Shown in pieces: positions 52,212 to 64,000 of a DNA stretch of 64,000 bases. Origin of the DNA: Stieleria magnilauensis (GTDB lineage: Bacteria > Planctomycetota > Planctomycetia > Pirellulales > Pirellulaceae). Under the pieces are notes generated by a model, which had not been told where the DNA came from, searched no databases, and saw nothing but the letters and a program-made list of their open reading frames with translations. Each line of letters begins with the position of its first letter. Positions within the stretch are counted from its first letter, which is position 1. Both the position numbers and the translations under genes were made by a program. The stretch spans positions 7,628,233-7,692,232 of the forward strand of contig CP036432.1 in assembly GCA_007753675.1 (NCBI GenBank), written 5' to 3'.

Positions 52212-53789
52212 ATGACCGCAAAAGTACTCCTCGCCGGAACCTGGCGTGACGCCGATTCGGTCGGCACGTTCCAAGCGACCAACCCGAACACCAACGAAAA
52301 GCTGCCCACCGAGTTTCCGATCAGCTCGTGGGCCGATTGCGATGCCGCGCTGGATGCCGCCGCCGGAGCGGCTCGCGAAATGCGAACACTTCCCGCCGCG
52401 AAGATCGCGGAGTTTTTGGATCTGTACGCCGACAAGATCGACGCGGCCAAAGACAGTCTGGTCGAGGCGGCACACGCCGAAACCGGTTTGGCCAAGTCAC
52501 CGCGACTGGCCGATGGAGAGTTGCCACGAACCAGTGGCCAACTTCGTTCCGCCGCAGAATCCTGTCGCAGCGGCGATTGGGCGATGGCAACGATCGACAC
52601 CGCCGCCGGGATTCGCTCCTGCTACGAGCCGCTCGGACCGATCTGTGTGTTCGGTCCCAATAACTTTCCCTTTGCCTTCGGGTCGGTTTCCGGCGGAGAC
52701 TTTGCCGCGGCGATTGCGGCAGGCAATCCCGTCATCGGCAAAGCCAACAGTTCCCACCCCGAAACGACGCGACTGTTTGCAGAACTTGCTTTGGAAGCCG
52801 CAAACGAAACCGGCATGCCCTCTGCCACCGTCCAGTTGATCTATCGCACCGGACACGCCGACGGCGAACGTTTGGTCGCCGATCCACGCGTCGGTGCGAC
52901 CGGGTACACGGGCAGCCGATCAGCCGGATTGAAACTCAAGGCGGCCGCCGACGCGGCCGGCAAGCCGATCTATTTGGAACTTTCCAGCGTCAACCCGGTC
53001 GTCTTGTTGCCGGGCGCCCTGGCCGCCCGCGGCGATGAAATTGTCGACGAGTTTTGCGGCAGCGCGTTGATGGGATCCGGCCAGTTTTGCACCAATCCCG
53101 GCGTGGTGTTGGCGATCGCCGGTGAAGGCACTGACAAATTCATCGCCGCGGTCAAAGAACGCTTTGCCGGCTCGCCCGCGGGAACATTGTTGTCACCCGC
53201 CGTTGCCGGAAGCTTGAAAGACAGCATCGAGAAACTTTGCGGGTTTGGCGCGGAGTTGTTGGTCGGCGGCGGCGAGGTTGAAGCCGGCCGATGCGCGCTG
53301 GCCAACACGTTGATGACCGCGACGGGAAAACAGTTTCTAGACGACCCCGAAGGGTTCCAGACCGAAGCGTTCGGCAATGCATCGCTGGTCGTGGTCACCA
53401 AGGACCTGGACGAACTTTGCAGCGTGCTGGCCAGCTTGGAAGGCAACTTGACCGGCTGCGTTTACAGCGATCCGGCCGGCAGCGACGATGCGTCGTACGA
53501 CCAGGTGGCGTTCGAATTGACGCCGAAGGTCGGGCGGGTGCTCAACGACAAGATGCCGACCGGAGTCGCCGTCTCGGCCGCGATGAATCACGGCGGACCC
53601 TATCCGGCGACCGGGCACCCGGGTTTCACCGCCGTCGGCGTCCCCGGATCGTTGCTGCGGTTCGGGAAACTGACCAGCTATGACAACGTCCGGCCGGAAC
53701 GATTGCCGGCGTTGTTGGCGGACAAGAACCCGACCGGCCAAACCCCACGCCGGATCGACGGCGCGTGGACGACGGCGGATGTGTCGTGA
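52212..53789 (+). CDS. Alpha-ketoglutarate-semialdehyde-type aldehyde dehydrogenase
   Basis: 525 residues, NADP+-type ALDH family. Cofactor and catalytic motifs are FGPNNFPFAFGSVSGGDFAA, Lys in VIGKANSSHPET, Glu in YLELSSVNPVV and the nucleophile Cys in MGSGQFCTNPG. This form matches 2,5-dioxovalerate (alpha-ketoglutarate semialdehyde) dehydrogenases of the KGSADH group. With the FAH gene 64 bp upstream it completes the last two steps of a Weimberg-like oxidative pentose pathway to alpha-ketoglutarate. A GGAG site lies just before the ATG. The sugar dehydrogenase and first dehydratase are not here. Confidence 0.85.
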   Translation: MTAKVLLAGTWRDADSVGTFQATNPNTNEKLPTEFPISSWADCDAALDAAAGAAREMRTLPAAKIAEFLDLYADKIDAAKDSLVEAAHAETGLAKSPRLADGELPRTSGQLRSAAESCRSGDWAMATIDTAAGIRSCYEPLGPICVFGPNNFPFAFGSVSGGDFAAAIAAGNPVIGKANSSHPETTRLFAELALEAANETGMPSATVQLIYRTGHADGERLVADPRVGATGYTGSRSAGLKLKAAADAAGKPIYLELSSVNPVVLLPGALAARGDEIVDEFCGSALMGSGQFCTNPGVVLAIAGEGTDKFIAAVKERFAGSPAGTLLSPAVAGSLKDSIEKLCGFGAELLVGGGEVEAGRCALANTLMTATGKQFLDDPEGFQTEAFGNASLVVVTKDLDELCSVLASLEGNLTGCVYSDPAGSDDASYDQVAFELTPKVGRVLNDKMPTGVAVSAAMNHGGPYPATGHPGFTAVGVPGSLLRFGKLTSYDNVRPERLPALLADKNPTGQTPRRIDGAWTTADVS

Positions 53790-53839
53790 TGGTGTCGCCC
53801 GGGTGGGATAGGTTGTGGATGCCTACGAGCCTGTCCGTC

Positions 53840-53864
53840 CGTTTCGCTGCGAAGCAGCGAAACG
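53840..53864. repeat. Perfect 11-bp-stem hairpin at the left edge of the array
   Basis: CGTTTCGCTGC, loop GAA, GCAGCGAAACG. Only the first unit keeps the full stem; later units keep just the GCTGC-GAA-GCAGC core. It lies 50 bp after the dehydrogenase stop and may be a terminator-like hairpin or the original module from which the array grew. Confidence 0.75.
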
Positions 53865-55674
53865 GGCGGCTGAAGCCTGCACACCAGCGCCGGTTGGTGT
53901 CCAGCCTTCAGGCGCATCCCCACGCGCTGCGAAGCAGCAAGACGGGCGGCTGAAGCCTGCACACCAGCGCGTGTTGGTGTCCAGCCTTTAGGCGCATCCC
54001 CACGCGCTGCGAAGCAGCAAGACGGGCGGCTGAAGCCTGCACGCCAGCGCCGGTTGGTGTCCAGCCTTGAGGCGCATCCTCACGCGCTGCGAAGCAGCAA
54101 GATAGGCGGCTGAAGCCTGCACACCAGCGCTGGTTGGTGTCCAGCCTTTAGGCGCATCCCCACGCGCTGCGAAGCAGCAAGATGGGCGGCTGAAGCCTGC
54201 ACGCCAGCGCGTGTTGGTGTCCAGCCTTCAGGCGCATCCCCGCGCGCTGCGAAGCAGCAAGACGGGCGGCTGAAGCCTGCACACCAGCGCTGGTTGGTGT
54301 CCAGCCTTCAGGCGCATCCTCACGCGCTGCGAAGCAGCAAGACGGGCGGCTGAAGCCTGCACACCAGCGCTGGTTGGTGTCCAGCCTTCAGGCGCATCCT
54401 CACGCGCTGCGAAGCAGCAAGACGGGCGGCTGAAGCCTGCACACCAGCGCTGGTTGGTGTCCAGCCTTTAGGCGCATCCCCACGCGCTGCGAAGCAGCAA
54501 GACGGGCGGCTGAAGCCTGCACACCAGCGCGTGTTGGTGTCCAGCCTTTAGGCGCATCCCCACGCGCTGCGAAGCAGCAAGACGGGCGGCTGAAGCCTGC
54601 ACGCCAGCGCCGGTTGGTGTCCAGCCTTGAGGCGCATCCTCACGCGCTGCGAAGCAGCAAGATAGGCGGCTGAAGCCTGCACACCAGCGCTGGTTGGTGT
54701 CCAGCCTTTAGGCGCATCCCCACGCGCTGCGAAGCAGCAAGATGGGCGGCTGAAGCCTGCACGCCAGCGCGTGTTGGTGTCCAGCCTTCAGGCGCATCCC
54801 CGCGCGCTGCGAAGCAGCAAGACGGGCGGCTGAAGCCTGCACACCAGCGCTGGTTGGTGTCCAGCCTTCAGGCGCATCCTCACGCGCTGCGAAGCAGCAA
54901 GACGGGCGGCTGAAGCCTGCACACCAACGCCGGTTGGTGTCCAGCCTTCAGACGCATCCCCACGCGCTGCGGAGCAGCAAGACGGGCGGCTGAAGCCTGC
55001 ACACCAGCGTCTGTTGGTGTCCAGCCTTCAGGCGCATCCCCACGCGCTGCGAAGCAGCAAGACGGGCGGCTGAAGCCTGCACGCCAGCGCCGGTTGGTGT
55101 CCAGCCTTGAGGCGCATCCTCACGCGCTGCGAAGCAGCAAGATAGGCGGCTGAAGCCTGCACACCAGCGCTGGTTGGTGTCCAGCCTTTAGGCGCATCCC
55201 CACGCGCTGCGAAGCAGCAAGATGGGCGGCTGAAGCCTGCACGCCAGCGCGTGTTGGTGTCCAGCCTTCAGGCGCATCCCCGCGCGCTGCGAAGCAGCAA
55301 GACGGGCGGCTGAAGCCTGCACACCAGCGCTGGTTGGTGTCCAGCCTTTGGGCGCATTCCCGCGCGCTGCGGAGCAGCAAGACGGGCGGCTGAAGCCTGC
55401 ACACCAGCGCCGGTTGGTGTCCAGCCTTCAGGCGCATCCCTACGCGCTGCGAAGCAGCAAGACGAGCGGCTGAAGCCTGCACACCAGCGTTGGTTGGTGT
55501 CCAGCCTTTAGGCGCATCCCCACGCGCTGCGGAGCAGCAAGACGGGCGGCTGAAGCCTGCACACCAGCGCTGGTTGGTGTCCAGCCTTCAGGCGCATCCC
55601 CACGCGCTGCGGAGCAGCAAGACGGGCGGCTGAAGCCTGCACACCAGCGCATGTTGGTGTCCAGCCTTCAGGCG
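53851..55674. repeat. 80-bp tandem repeat array, 22.8 copies
   Basis: Twenty-two full 80-bp units and a partial one fill the gap between the convergent dehydrogenase and clpB genes; the last unit ends five bases from the clpB stop. Each unit holds GAAGCAGCAAGACGGGCGGC, TGAAGCCTGCACACCAGCGC and GGTTGGTGTCCAGCCTTCAG. The segment from GCGGCTGAAGCC to CCTTCAGGCGC folds into a 21-bp stem with three mismatches and an 8-nt loop. Units 2-6 (53931-54330) recur without change as 9-13 (54491-54890), and units 3-5 again as 16-18 (55051-55290). Because 80 is not a multiple of three, no protein frame persists, and there are no unique spacers. Confidence 0.93.
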
Positions 55675-55678
55675 ATTC

Positions 55679-58324
55679 TTACTTGAACACGTAGTGCATC
55701 CCGTCATGGTCGACCGTGACGGTGCTGCCTTCGGCGAAGTCGCTTTTCAGCAGCGCCGTTGCCAGTTCATTCTGGACTTCACGCTGGATCACGCGTTTGA
55801 GCGGGCGTGCACCGTAGGTCGGGTCGTAGCCGGTCTTGGCGATCTCATCGATGGCGGCATCGGTGACCTCAAGCGTCAACCCGTTGTCCTGCAAGCGACG
55901 TCCGAGATGGGCGAGTTGCAGTTTGACGATCTTGCGAATTTGCGCTTGATCCAACGGGCGGAAAATGACGGTGTCGTCGATGCGGTTAAGGAACTCGGGC
56001 AAGAACCGGGTGCGCAAGGCCTGTTCAACGGCCTCCCGCATCTCCTCTTCGTCTCCACCGTCGGCCGCGATCTGCTGAATCTCTTGGCTTCCCGCGTTGC
56101 TGGTCATCACGATCACCGCGTTGGTGAAGTTCACCGTCCGTCCGTGACCATCGGTCAATCGGCCGTCGTCCAACACTTGCAGCAAGATGTTGAACACATC
56201 CGGGTGTGCCTTTTCGATTTCATCGAGCAGGATCACGGTGTAGGGACGTCGACGCACGGCCTCGGTCAACTTGCCGCCTTCTTCGTAGCCGACGTATCCG
56301 GGCGGCGCACCGATCATCCGGGCGACGCTATGTCGTTCCATGAACTCGGACATGTCGATCCGCACCATCGCGTTCTCGTCGTCGAACATGATTTCGGCGA
56401 GCGCCTTGCATAATTCCGTCTTGCCGACGCCGGTCGGTCCGAGGAACAAGAAGGATCCGATCGGTCGGTTCGGGTCGGCCAATCCGCTGCGGCTGCGGCG
56501 GACCGCATCGGAGACGGCTCGAACGGCTTCGTCTTGACCGATCACACGGGTGTGCAAGCGTTCCTCCATGACCAGCAGTTTGGCCCGCTCGGTTTCCATC
56601 ATCCGGCTCACCGGAACACCGGTCCAAGCTGAAACCACTTCAGCGATTTCCTCCGCCGTCACTTCTTTTCGCAGCAGTCGGCGCTCGGGTTCATCGGACG
56701 TTTCTTCGTTGGACGAACCTTGATCGCGTTTTTCGATTTCTTCCAGTTTTGATTCCAGCTCTGCCTGACGCGATTGGACTTCCAACATCTCTCGATACAG
56801 GTCTTCGGGGTTTTCACCGCGAAGCTGAGTCTGTTTGGCTTCGGCGTCGAGCGTCGCGAATCGGTGCGCCAGTGTTTCGGCTTCCTGGCGAATGGATTGC
56901 ACGCCTTCGAGCCCGATCTTTTCGCTTTCCCATTGTTCCCGCAGGTCGGCAAGCTCTTTGCCGAGCGATTCCATTTCGGATTGAATCTCTTCGCGGCGGC
57001 TCACAATCGATGCATCACCGGAATCTTCGTCTTGAAGTTGTCGCTGGGCGAGTTCCAGTTGACGCAACCGGCGTTGGATGCGGTCGATGGGTTCGGGCAC
57101 GCTTTCTTTTTCCATCGCCAATCGGCTGGTCGCTTCGTCAACCAGGTCGATGGCCTTGTCCGGCAGAAAGCGTTCGGTGATGTAGCGATCAGCGAGTGTG
57201 GCGGCGGCGACCAGGGCGCTGTCGGTAATTCGCACGCCGTGATGAGATTCGTAGCGTGATTTCAGGCCACGGAGAATCGCGATCGAGTCTTCGACCGATG
57301 GTTCTTCGACGTAAACCGGTTGGAATCGCCGTTCGAGTGCGGCGTCCTTTTCAATGTGTTGGCGATATTCGTCCAGCGTCGTCGCACCGACACAGCGGAG
57401 CGCGCCGCGGGCGAGTTCCGGTTTCAACAAGTTGGCCGCGTCGGGTGAACCTTCCGCCTTGCCCGCGCCGACGACCAGGTGCAGTTCGTCGATGAACAGG
57501 ATCACGCGTCCATCGGAATCCTTGACTTCTCGCAGCACGGCTTTGAGGCGTTCTTCAAAATCGCCGCGGAACTTTGCCCCGGCGACCAAGGCTCCCATGT
57601 CCAGCGCGATGACGCGTTTGTTCTTCAGACTGGTGGGAACATCGGCTTCGAAAATTCGCAGCGCCAAGCCTTCGGCGATCGCGGTCTTTCCTACACCGGG
57701 TTGTCCGATCAGGACGGGATTGTTTTTTGTGCGTCGCGACAGGACTTGGATCACCCGACGGATCTCGTTGTCCCGGCCGATGACCGGATCGAGTTTTCCG
57801 GCGGCGGCGAGTTGGGTCAGGTCGACGCCGTATTTTTCGAGCGCCTGATAGGTGTCCTCGGCGTTCTGGTCGGTCACGCGTGCGCTGCCACGGATTTCGC
57901 TGGCCGCCTTCAAGACGTCGTTGGCGCTGACGCCACACAATGAGAGCAGGCTCTGTGCTTTCGTCTTGGCTTTGGCGATCCCCAGCAACAGATGCTCGGT
58001 GCTGACGAATTCGTCTTTCAGCGATTGCGCACTGGTGGCGGCTTCGTTGAGGGCCGATTGCAGTTCCGCGGCGATGCTCGGTTGTCGACCGCCGCTGACC
58101 TTGGGCAATTTGTCGAACTCGCTGGTGGTCAGTTCACGCAGTTGGTTCGCATCGGCGTTCATCTTGGACAACAGCGCGGCGGTGATGCCACCGCTTTCGT
58201 CGAGCATGGCCGAGAGCAGGTGCAGGGAGGTGATTTCGGGATTGCCGGCCGATGTCGCACGCCCCTGTGCTTCGGCGATCAGGCCTTGGGCTTTGGTGGT
58301 CAGTTTGTCGAATCGGAAGGTCAT
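55679..58324 (-). CDS. clpB: Chaperone disaggregase ClpB
   Basis: 881 residues, full ClpB architecture: N-domain ([20 protein letters not shown]), first AAA+ with [18 protein letters not shown], a long coiled-coil middle domain (about 400-540, [19 protein letters not shown]), and second AAA+ with [17 protein letters not shown]. Pore-loop and sensor motifs are in place ([25 protein letters not shown]). ClpB works with DnaK to dissolve aggregates; dnaK lies 287 bp upstream on the same strand. The 3' end meets the 80-bp array, with no separate terminator. Confidence 0.95.
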
Positions 58325-60549: not shown

Positions 60550-61191
60550 AACGCTTCATCTCCGTGAAAAGTGGATTGTTCGAGGTGGATTCGGCCGTGG
60601 CGTTTACCGCGCTGGGATGCACGCTTGGGGGCCGTCGTTGGGTTGTGCTGAACGTGTCAATGTTGATGGTGTTCATGGCAGGCGACCGCCGTCCGATCTG
60701 CCTGTCGTTTTCGCCTGCTGAGGCGTCGGTGTGATCGAAAAGCAAAGGACGTGCCAGTCGAACGTTCGTCGCGCAGAAAAACGTCGGCTGCCACTAGGAA
60801 ACATGCGTATCCTCCGCGAATCGTTAGTTTTCCAGCGGACGAAACTCTCTGGAAACCTTTTTTGGCAGCGTCGCTTGAGAGCGGTTTTGGGGGCTCCAAC
60901 GGGCAATGCCAGATTGACAGTTCTGGTGCCGGCAGCGGCACCTCGCCGCACCGACAGTCGCGCGCACGCACCGGGACGGTCGCTTGGCCCAACATGGCCA
61001 TCTGCCAACAGGCTCGCCGCCGACCTCGCCGCCGGCCTCGCCGTCGACCTCGCCGTCGACCTCGCCGTCGACCTCGTCGTCGACGCGATCTTTTTCCTCG
61101 CCGGACAGGATTTCTTGTCAGAATCCGATTCCGATGGGGTCTATCACGTGTTCCCCCACACGCTGTGCGTCGTTCTGCGAGAATCGATTGA
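60550..61191. other. Divergent dnaK/sigma-factor intergenic region
   Basis: 642 bp without a trusted gene. Open frames here are Arg- or Val/Asp-repetitive and reflect a 12-bp minisatellite (61013-61084). A TTGACA facing dnaK at 60655-60660 has no matching -10. No CIRCE (TTAGCACTC) or RpoH-type pair was found. Confidence 0.5.
61013..61084 (+). repeat. 12-bp minisatellite CTCGCCGTCGAC x6
   Basis: Six tandem 12-bp units. The three central ones are identical, while the first two and the last differ by one or two bases. They lie upstream of the ECF sigma gene. The period is a multiple of three, which produces the spurious repetitive frames seen across it. Confidence 0.85.
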
Positions 61192-63623: not shown

Positions 63624-64000
63624 ATGAATCGCACGACCCTCTTGATCTTCTTCGGTTGCCTGCTTGGGGCCCCGATCGCCGCGGCAGTCGACATCACGTT
63701 TGTGACACCCGACGGTCAACCGGCCCGCGGCACCAAGTTCTATCGCACCTATCAAGATCCGGGGATGGAGGAAATGGGAATGGACATGATGGGCGGCATG
63801 ATGATGGGCAGCGGTGGCGGCGCCGAAGATGAGATGTATGGCATGGAGATGGGCATGGGAGACGGCATGGGCATGGGCGGGGGCGGGGGCATGGGAATGG
63901 GCATGGGAATGGGCCCTGGGGGGATGCCAACGGCAGGTTTTCCTTCCGCGCCGTACGTTGCATTTCTTGATGGGAAGCCACTGCAACCGATGACCCCGCC
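63624..64000 (+). CDS. Secreted Met/Gly-rich protein (3' end beyond window)
   Basis: 125 codons are visible before the window edge. A signal peptide (MNRTTLLIFFGCLLGAPIAA) leads to a short beta-like segment (DITFVTPDGQPARGTKFY), then a Met/Gly-rich low-complexity stretch (about residues 49-100) with motifs such as EEMGMDMMGGMMMG and GMGMGPGGMP. Met-rich stretches can bind copper or silver, or just act as flexible linkers; no His accompanies them here. The ATG is overlapped by the stop of a 10-codon frame starting at 63595. The rest of the protein is outside the window. Confidence 0.75.
   Translation, partial: MNRTTLLIFFGCLLGAPIAAAVDITFVTPDGQPARGTKFYRTYQDPGMEEMGMDMMGGMMMGSGGGAEDEMYGMEMGMGDGMGMGGGGGMGMGMGMGPGGMPTAGFPSAPYVAFLDGKPLQPMTP

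Follow-up and report, generated by a model that had tools for sequence, protein, structure and literature searches.

BIMEs of E. coli carry two alternating spacers. The BIMEs of enterobacteria and others are intergenic palindromic modules with regular spacing and alternating orientation, as are the repeats described here, and in the accessible sections of the RAYT study its authors question whether changes in BIME length can be due to recombination or slippage alone and suspect a transposase (PMC2817692). REPINs, hairpin-forming REP doublets that go with RAYT transposases, likewise have inverted conserved ends, 16-mers in their case, a variable spacer and many intergenic copies, and are met with alone, as doublets or in ordered tandem clusters (PMC3116915, in the sections available). 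Apart from the 16-mer ends and the RAYT, these features are shared by the 80-bp family presented below. The BOX element of Streptococcus pneumoniae is also a dispersed structured repeat with a tandem inner module of variable number, is over-represented between convergent genes and varies in length among strains, and the convergent-gap bias of BOX, RUP and SPRITE elements is interpreted, in the part of that report available, as tolerance of inserts (PMC3049150). In addition, intergenic tandem repeat families scattered genome-wide, as here, are known among prokaryote satellites, for example in Leptospira (PMC6749651, in part), and prokaryotic palindromic repeats with a GTAG or CGTC tag have been recorded in Planctomycetes too (PMC3733652, in part).

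The window, which is the whole 64,000-nucleotide stretch of Stieleria magnilauensis DNA analysed here, covers positions 7628233-7692232 of a genome assembled as one contig of 10,769,056 bp. At 53845-55674 (+ strand) TRF detected a tandem array of period 80 with 22.9 head-to-tail copies and 93% matches, in agreement with the ~22.8 copies given by a first-pass annotation made from the sequence. As that annotation had also stated, the array lies between convergent genes, with an aldehyde dehydrogenase gene on the left (52212-53789, + strand; ORF with Pfam PF00171, E=4.4e-47), whose 3' end faces the array, and clpB on the right (55679-58324, - strand; ORF and domain search, ClpB domains). Its claim that the array fills this gap exactly holds on the clpB side, where the stop codon is a few bases from the array's right end, but not on the other, where 55 bp are left over between the dehydrogenase stop at 53789 and the array.

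Each unit starts with a small hairpin, continues with a left and a right arm linked by an 8-nt joint, and closes with a spacer. Both arms and the 8-nt joint are found in 23/23 units, and there are 23 small hairpins, with the loop GAA in 19 and GGA in four. By sequence inspection the left border is a perfect palindrome with a 12-bp stem, CCGTTTCGCTGC-GAA-GCAGCGAAACGG, at 53839-53865 (no strand assigned), which is an extended version of the small hairpin. It is followed on the + strand by the first unit's left arm (GCGGCTGAAGCCTGCACACCA, 53866-53886) and the right arm (TGGTGTCCAGCCTTCAGGCGC, 53895-53915), inverted relative to the left, both of which recur every 80 bp. The fold proposed earlier, a 21-bp imperfect stem plus a small hairpin, agrees with the arms and small hairpins of all 23 units, with the correction that three mismatch columns of the stem are kept family-wide, one of them less strictly, and that two more columns are paired at only some half of the loci.

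The 23 units comprise 14 distinct sequences arranged in ordered blocks. An earlier reading that a 400-bp block (units 2-6) recurs unchanged 560 bp on was borne out, with a maximal exact run of 457 bp (53910-54366, + strand, duplicated at 54470-54926, lag 560). The third copy claimed for a 240-bp part of it (units 3-5) likewise corresponds to an exact 319-bp run (53990-54308, + strand, duplicated at 55030-55348, lag 1040), and the same copy shows up at lag 480 as well (54550-54868). Elsewhere in the window TRF reported two short tandem repeats, 12 bp x 6.0 at 61013-61084 and 12 bp x 6.2 at 63840-63914.

Several identities for the array were tried and rejected. A coding array was dismissed as 80 is not divisible by 3; the first-pass statement that there is no ORF was literally incorrect, as two mechanical ORFs (94 and 120 aa) enter or sit within the array on the - strand, and these show no sign of being genes. 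A structured RNA family was rejected after an Rfam search of 53000-56500 returned no match at E<=1, as was an intrinsic terminator, with no terminator-like site in the array region against 1.9 expected from shuffles. CRISPR and integron arrays were considered as readings and set aside.

A genome-wide search for the unit, which the first-pass annotation had proposed, showed that the array is not unique, with at least 283 matches to one unit and at least 298 to a divergent unit in the same genome. The basic module is the arm, of 20-21 bp with consensus TGGTGTNNAGSCTTNAGSCG; its 20-bp pattern (<=1 mismatch) occurs 449 + 453 = 902 times in the genome, compared with 1 + 0 for the pattern read backwards as a control. 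Loci around the matches listed, a partial sample picked via two query units and one arm pattern, gave 64 clusters with 345 unit hits, of which none mixed unit strands (loci L134-L139 fall outside this sample and outside the gap-orientation count below). All sampled loci of this genome together hold 656 arms at <=2 mismatches. The clpB array is the longest of the 64 clusters, the second longest having 20.6 units, and many other arrays of 3-21 units are present in the same assembly. The clpB array is thus the largest sampled copy of a dispersed repeat family. A different tandem repeat of ~245 bp was also seen at ~983.3-984.4 kb of this genome (L115:4327-5352), and a single arm of the 80-bp family has been captured in its unit.

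Beyond this genome, a unit-based search of the taxonomic family was positive in 25/199 genomes, including our own, and in 11/68 genera. The arm pattern was found at least once in 20/60 genomes (own included), in some at control level only, with counts of 365 in G006 (Rhodopirellula sp. SM50), 312 in G002, 253 in G003, 242 in G013 and 164 in G001, and zero in three congeners. A pattern scan of named genomes for the two-arm core gave 38 stretches, 37 of them from Stieleria sedimenti, Rhodopirellula sp. SM50 and JC639, and Planctomycetes bacterium CA13; the remaining one, from a Kofleriaceae MAG without a unit hit at E<=0.001, is probably a chance match.

The arms alternate in orientation and are separated by two regular spacers of ~8 and ~32 nt. 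At loci of this genome, including the window, the joint is 8 nt in 261/283 cases and the centre 31-33 nt in 273/288, with corresponding figures of 48/71 and 51/79 in relatives after 27 repeats of the same stretch were dropped. Isolated arm pairs were seen in this genome as four '<>' and two '><', and in relatives as 14 and 13, respectively, alongside 15 and 49 single arms. As both pair arrangements occur among isolated arms, no single mobile unit stands out, and these pairs, in this genome and in relatives, singled out no founding monomer. Sequence conservation is concentrated in the arms and small hairpin, where mean entropy over 65 loci was 0.19-0.22 bits, as against 0.58 bits in the joint and 0.81-0.91 bits in the linkers (this set, also used for column pairing, takes L068 and L070 twice and represents 63 distinct loci). 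Furthermore, units are more alike within arrays than between them (identity 0.939 versus 0.872, 38 arrays). More distant versions were observed by eye: CA13 keeps the arms and the 80-bp spacing with a different centre sequence, G019 has a spacing of ~66 bp, and G026 shows a more complex pattern with matches ~136 bp apart.

We then compared the clpB region in 14 genomes including our own, a comparison of related strains that the first-pass annotation had also suggested. The dehydrogenase adjoins clpB in three others (G001, G003 and G006), and in this orthologous gap the 22.9 units seen here are matched by ~1.7 units (full or partial) in G003 and G006, and by a unit fragment plus another insert in G001 (by eye). 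In the other ten genomes there was no dehydrogenase match in the stretch around clpB and no convincing unit on its 3' side (best E 0.62). By eye, two of these genomes carry an unrelated GTAG-starting GTAGCGGAANNCGCCAAG hairpin repeat at the clpB 3' end, G013 (L083) as an array of ~168-bp units and G002 (L082) as one copy.

At 14 other array sites examined in five relatives, 38 site-by-relative gaps could be measured with both flanks. Thirteen have no unit hit and 24 have one to four hits, many of them fragments, while G002 has seven unit hits at the L022 site versus 4.0 units in our genome; these sites were picked for arrays in our own genome, which biases the comparison in favour of longer arrays here. 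In G003 and G006, both drafts, contigs break off at several array sites, so unit counts there may be low, and the clpB-gap counts of both lie inside contigs. Many orthologous gaps contain other repeats, for which reason a target duplication could not be read from empty sites, and neither a clean empty site nor a target duplication of the unit was found at the compared gaps. The relatives' counts fit local growth from few units.

A 1737-bp insertion sequence splits several of the arrays, and its 485-aa transposase matches PF13701 and NF033539 (IS1380 family). There are 13 copies in this genome, and 13/13 lie inside an arm, duplicating CTAA (TTAG on the other strand). Within 485 kb of own loci, a sample enriched in arrays, 256/685 CTAA/TTAG tetramers are in arrays; outside arrays they number roughly 900 per megabase and thousands genome-wide, so random use of the tetramer would not yield 13/13. 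The arms are a preferred landing site of this IS1380-family element. When MITE-type ends shared with a longer transposon were looked for, many of the arm pairs that are 0.2-6 kb apart in sampled loci outside the window proved to hold the element. The clpB array has seven TTAG tetramers in its right arms (53988-55511, + strand; starts at 53988, 54148, 54468, 54548, 54708, 55188 and 55508), and these are unoccupied examples of the site type that holds the element in other arrays.

Similar elements were followed in three relatives. In G001, of nine copies eight were fetched; one is outside the arms and seven are inside, the target being CTAA/TTAG for six of these and CTAG for the seventh. In SM50, six matches were read, five of them at contig ends; by eye, four adjoin an arm and two do not, and one of the adjoining arms also carries another insert. 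A diverged IS1380-type element of 69% identity in G004 sits at CTAG in all seven copies fetched of 12 (L206, L210, L214, L218, L222, L226 and L201), none of them in the 80-bp family, and by eye 5/7 are in another dispersed palindromic repeat. Other short inserts break arms or the small-hairpin loop (by eye). Those with inverted ends were noted at L021:2846-3249, L026:13485-13935, L018:1748-3415 and L025:5328-6648, and that at L018 has an apparent 6-bp duplication, CTTTAG.

We consider it likely that the clpB array arose by local amplification of one member of a palindromic repeat family that is dispersed, non-autonomous and REPIN/BIME-like. Two inverted 20-21-bp arms make a unit able to form a hairpin, and the head-to-tail joining of units gives the alternating arms with short (~8 nt) and long (~32 nt) spacers. 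New intergenic sites may be reached by small mobile hairpins with a transposase supplied in trans, and units would persist where they are least harmful, just past stop codons. Arrays could then grow and shrink through unequal recombination or replication slippage, as the exact multi-unit blocks suggest, and those in the clpB array may represent its latest growth steps. Among the three roles that the first-pass annotation had offered (a transcription insulator between convergent genes, a topological or gyrase site, and a selfish structural repeat), the last is the best fit, because the unit is dispersed, amplified, patchy among relatives and repeatedly struck by mobile elements.

A variant that we regard as unlikely would make the family a RAYT-independent element with its own route to long phase-locked arrays, onto whose arms an IS1380 element has evolved to home, such that the arrays would offer the insertion sequence a safe place to land and keep it out of genes. 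The phase-locking it supposes is based on the 8-nt joint of nearly all junctions in this genome.

The insulator reading, by which RNA hairpins from both strands would block or trim read-through between convergent genes and protect 3' ends, was weighed using the placement of arrays relative to genes. Clusters spanning >100 bp numbered 46 in 40 distinct gaps, after three were skipped (two beside masked N stretches and one without a flanking gene), with genes called by a simple in-house codon-score caller and with the 1458-bp IS genes ignored along with any ORF that shared >=60 bp with an array; before this cleaning the array orientations were 17 convergent, 22 co-directional and seven divergent. 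The 40 gaps are 18 convergent, 17 co-directional and five divergent, and 129 array-free gaps of >=50 bp are 27, 69 and 33, respectively. Enrichment of convergent gaps (18/40 versus 27/129, Fisher p=0.004) speaks for the reading, as does closeness to stop codons (<=15 bp in 26/53; array closer to the upstream stop than to the downstream start in 15/17 co-directional gaps), while depletion of divergent gaps was not significant (5/40 versus 33/129, p=0.13). Against it, 22/40 gaps are non-convergent, the 17 co-directional gaps show both unit orientations (nine opposite, eight same), the array region has no terminator-like site, and a location bias of this kind is elsewhere interpreted as insert tolerance (PMC3049150, in the part available).

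The predicted folds of the unit are stable and would also suit an insulator. With one unit folded in two registers, 0/200 shuffles folded as well on the + strand (z -3.7 and -3.3), and one and three of 200 matched it on the - strand (z -2.8 and -2.6). Evidence for selection on pairing is mixed, since there is none at the most variable paired column and some from a wobble column and from distant relatives. The most variable column pairs in 30/65 loci, which is not above shuffles; at another, alternating G-C and G-T, wobble pairing is kept in 61/63 loci (41 and 20). Single loci of G008 and G160 have arms that by eye are perfectly or almost perfectly complementary where Stieleria-type arms mismatch. 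In Stieleria-type units the stem mismatches themselves are kept, G.G in 60/63 loci and C.C in 61/62, with a third column, C.C, looser (47/63 of the loci sampled). RNA-level constraint is not supported by the most variable paired column, which does not covary, and the invariant columns are uninformative. The unrelated GTAG-type hairpin repeats at the clpB 3' end of G013 and G002, where clpB has another neighbour, favour an insulator at this position, but relatives with the same gap manage on ~1.7 units or a fragment, which makes a specific insulator role at clpB less likely. Overall we judge this reading improbable, with convergent enrichment the portion of the earlier proposal that stands.

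A protein-binding or topological array, as has been proposed for BIME-2 and gyrase, appears quite improbable. The 10-bp dyad within each arm (GGCTNAAGCC in left arms, GCCTTNAGGC in right arms) could make the arm a candidate binding site in double-stranded DNA, and in our reading one base pair swapped between the two dyads yields the G.G and the first C.C mismatches. The conservation of arm sequence, mismatches included, and the binding of gyrase by BIME-2 (PMC2817692, in part) are in its favour; unlike an essential site, however, arm number varies more than ten-fold among congeners and is zero in three. Finally, that the true clpB copy number is small and the array an assembly artefact is very improbable. 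In favour of an artefact, relatives with draft genomes have several contigs that stop at orthologous array sites, and the 22.9-copy figure is that of the assembly; against it, the genome is a single contig, the array has 14 distinct unit sequences in ordered blocks, and many other arrays of 3-21 units occur in the same assembly.

The preferred reading, a locally amplified palindromic family, was compared with RAYT-linked systems at six Y1_Tnp loci of this genome. An arm at <=2 mismatches was found within ~7 kb of 0/6 of these loci, and on this result RAYT linkage of the 80-bp family was rejected; looser matching (<=5 mismatches) gave scattered hits and, at L109, a GTAG-type array. At least three of the six loci have palindromes of their own. 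A Y1_Tnp gene at L104:7231-8563 has its own 19-20-bp palindromes nearby (CCGGTGGCGTGAGCCACCGG), and another at L106:6667-7816 has them on both sides (CCTGGGGCAACGCCCCAGG). The array at L109:7300-8000 (~1273.3-1274.0 kb) is a tandem array of ~97-bp GTAG-tagged palindromic units adjoining, at 1.273 Mb, a weak, RAYT-like Y1_Tnp match (25.6 bits against a cut-off of 23), and by eye base pairs are swapped between its arms too. This ~97-bp array is closer to the REPIN/RAYT kind than the 80-bp family is.

In the open-licence literature, as far as its accessible text goes, we found no description of the 80-bp repeat, nor anything on repetitive extragenic palindromes for Stieleria or Rhodopirellula; the available part of the satellite overview does not describe it, and its planctomycete entry is a table row for Rhodopirellula baltica (PMC6749651). 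The survey of GTAG- and CGTC-tagged repeats classes them by end motif (PMC3733652, in part), and none of its motifs was recognised on the arms. BOX has separate A and C ends flanking its tandem module, whereas here the whole unit repeats. Relative to BIMEs, the sequence differs, the arm dyad is only 10 bp and the host is a planctomycete. The family shares with REPINs its conserved inverted arms, at ~0.2 bits against 0.58-0.91 bits in joint and linkers, but no RAYT is tied to it at the six Y1_Tnp loci and the arm consensus has no GTAG (or CGTC) foot motif; GACG precedes the left arm, within the variable linker. REPIN/BIME-like is thus the best name for a family that has neither a linked Y1 transposase (0/6 loci) nor a GTAG end, and our best reading is that of an orphan palindromic element of this type. 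In the available text on P. fluorescens SBW25 the largest ordered cluster has four REPINs and one REP (PMC3116915), compared with 23 units here, so that long tandem arrays in planctomycetes now come within REPIN/BIME-like biology. The single-contig genome makes array growth traceable in one orthologous gap, over a range from one or two units up to 23. Since relatives' draft contigs end at such arrays, short-read genomes may under-count them. Likewise, insertion sequences that target REPs (ISPsy8, ISPa11, ISPpu9, ISPpu10, ISRm22 and ISRm19) have, as in this genome and less strictly in relatives, all copies at one position of the repeat; the survey of these lists the families IS3, IS110, IS4, IS256 and IS5, with the word IS1380 absent from its available text (PMC1525189). 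The element targeting the arms here is of the IS1380 family, which thereby joins the insertion sequences that target palindromic repeats.
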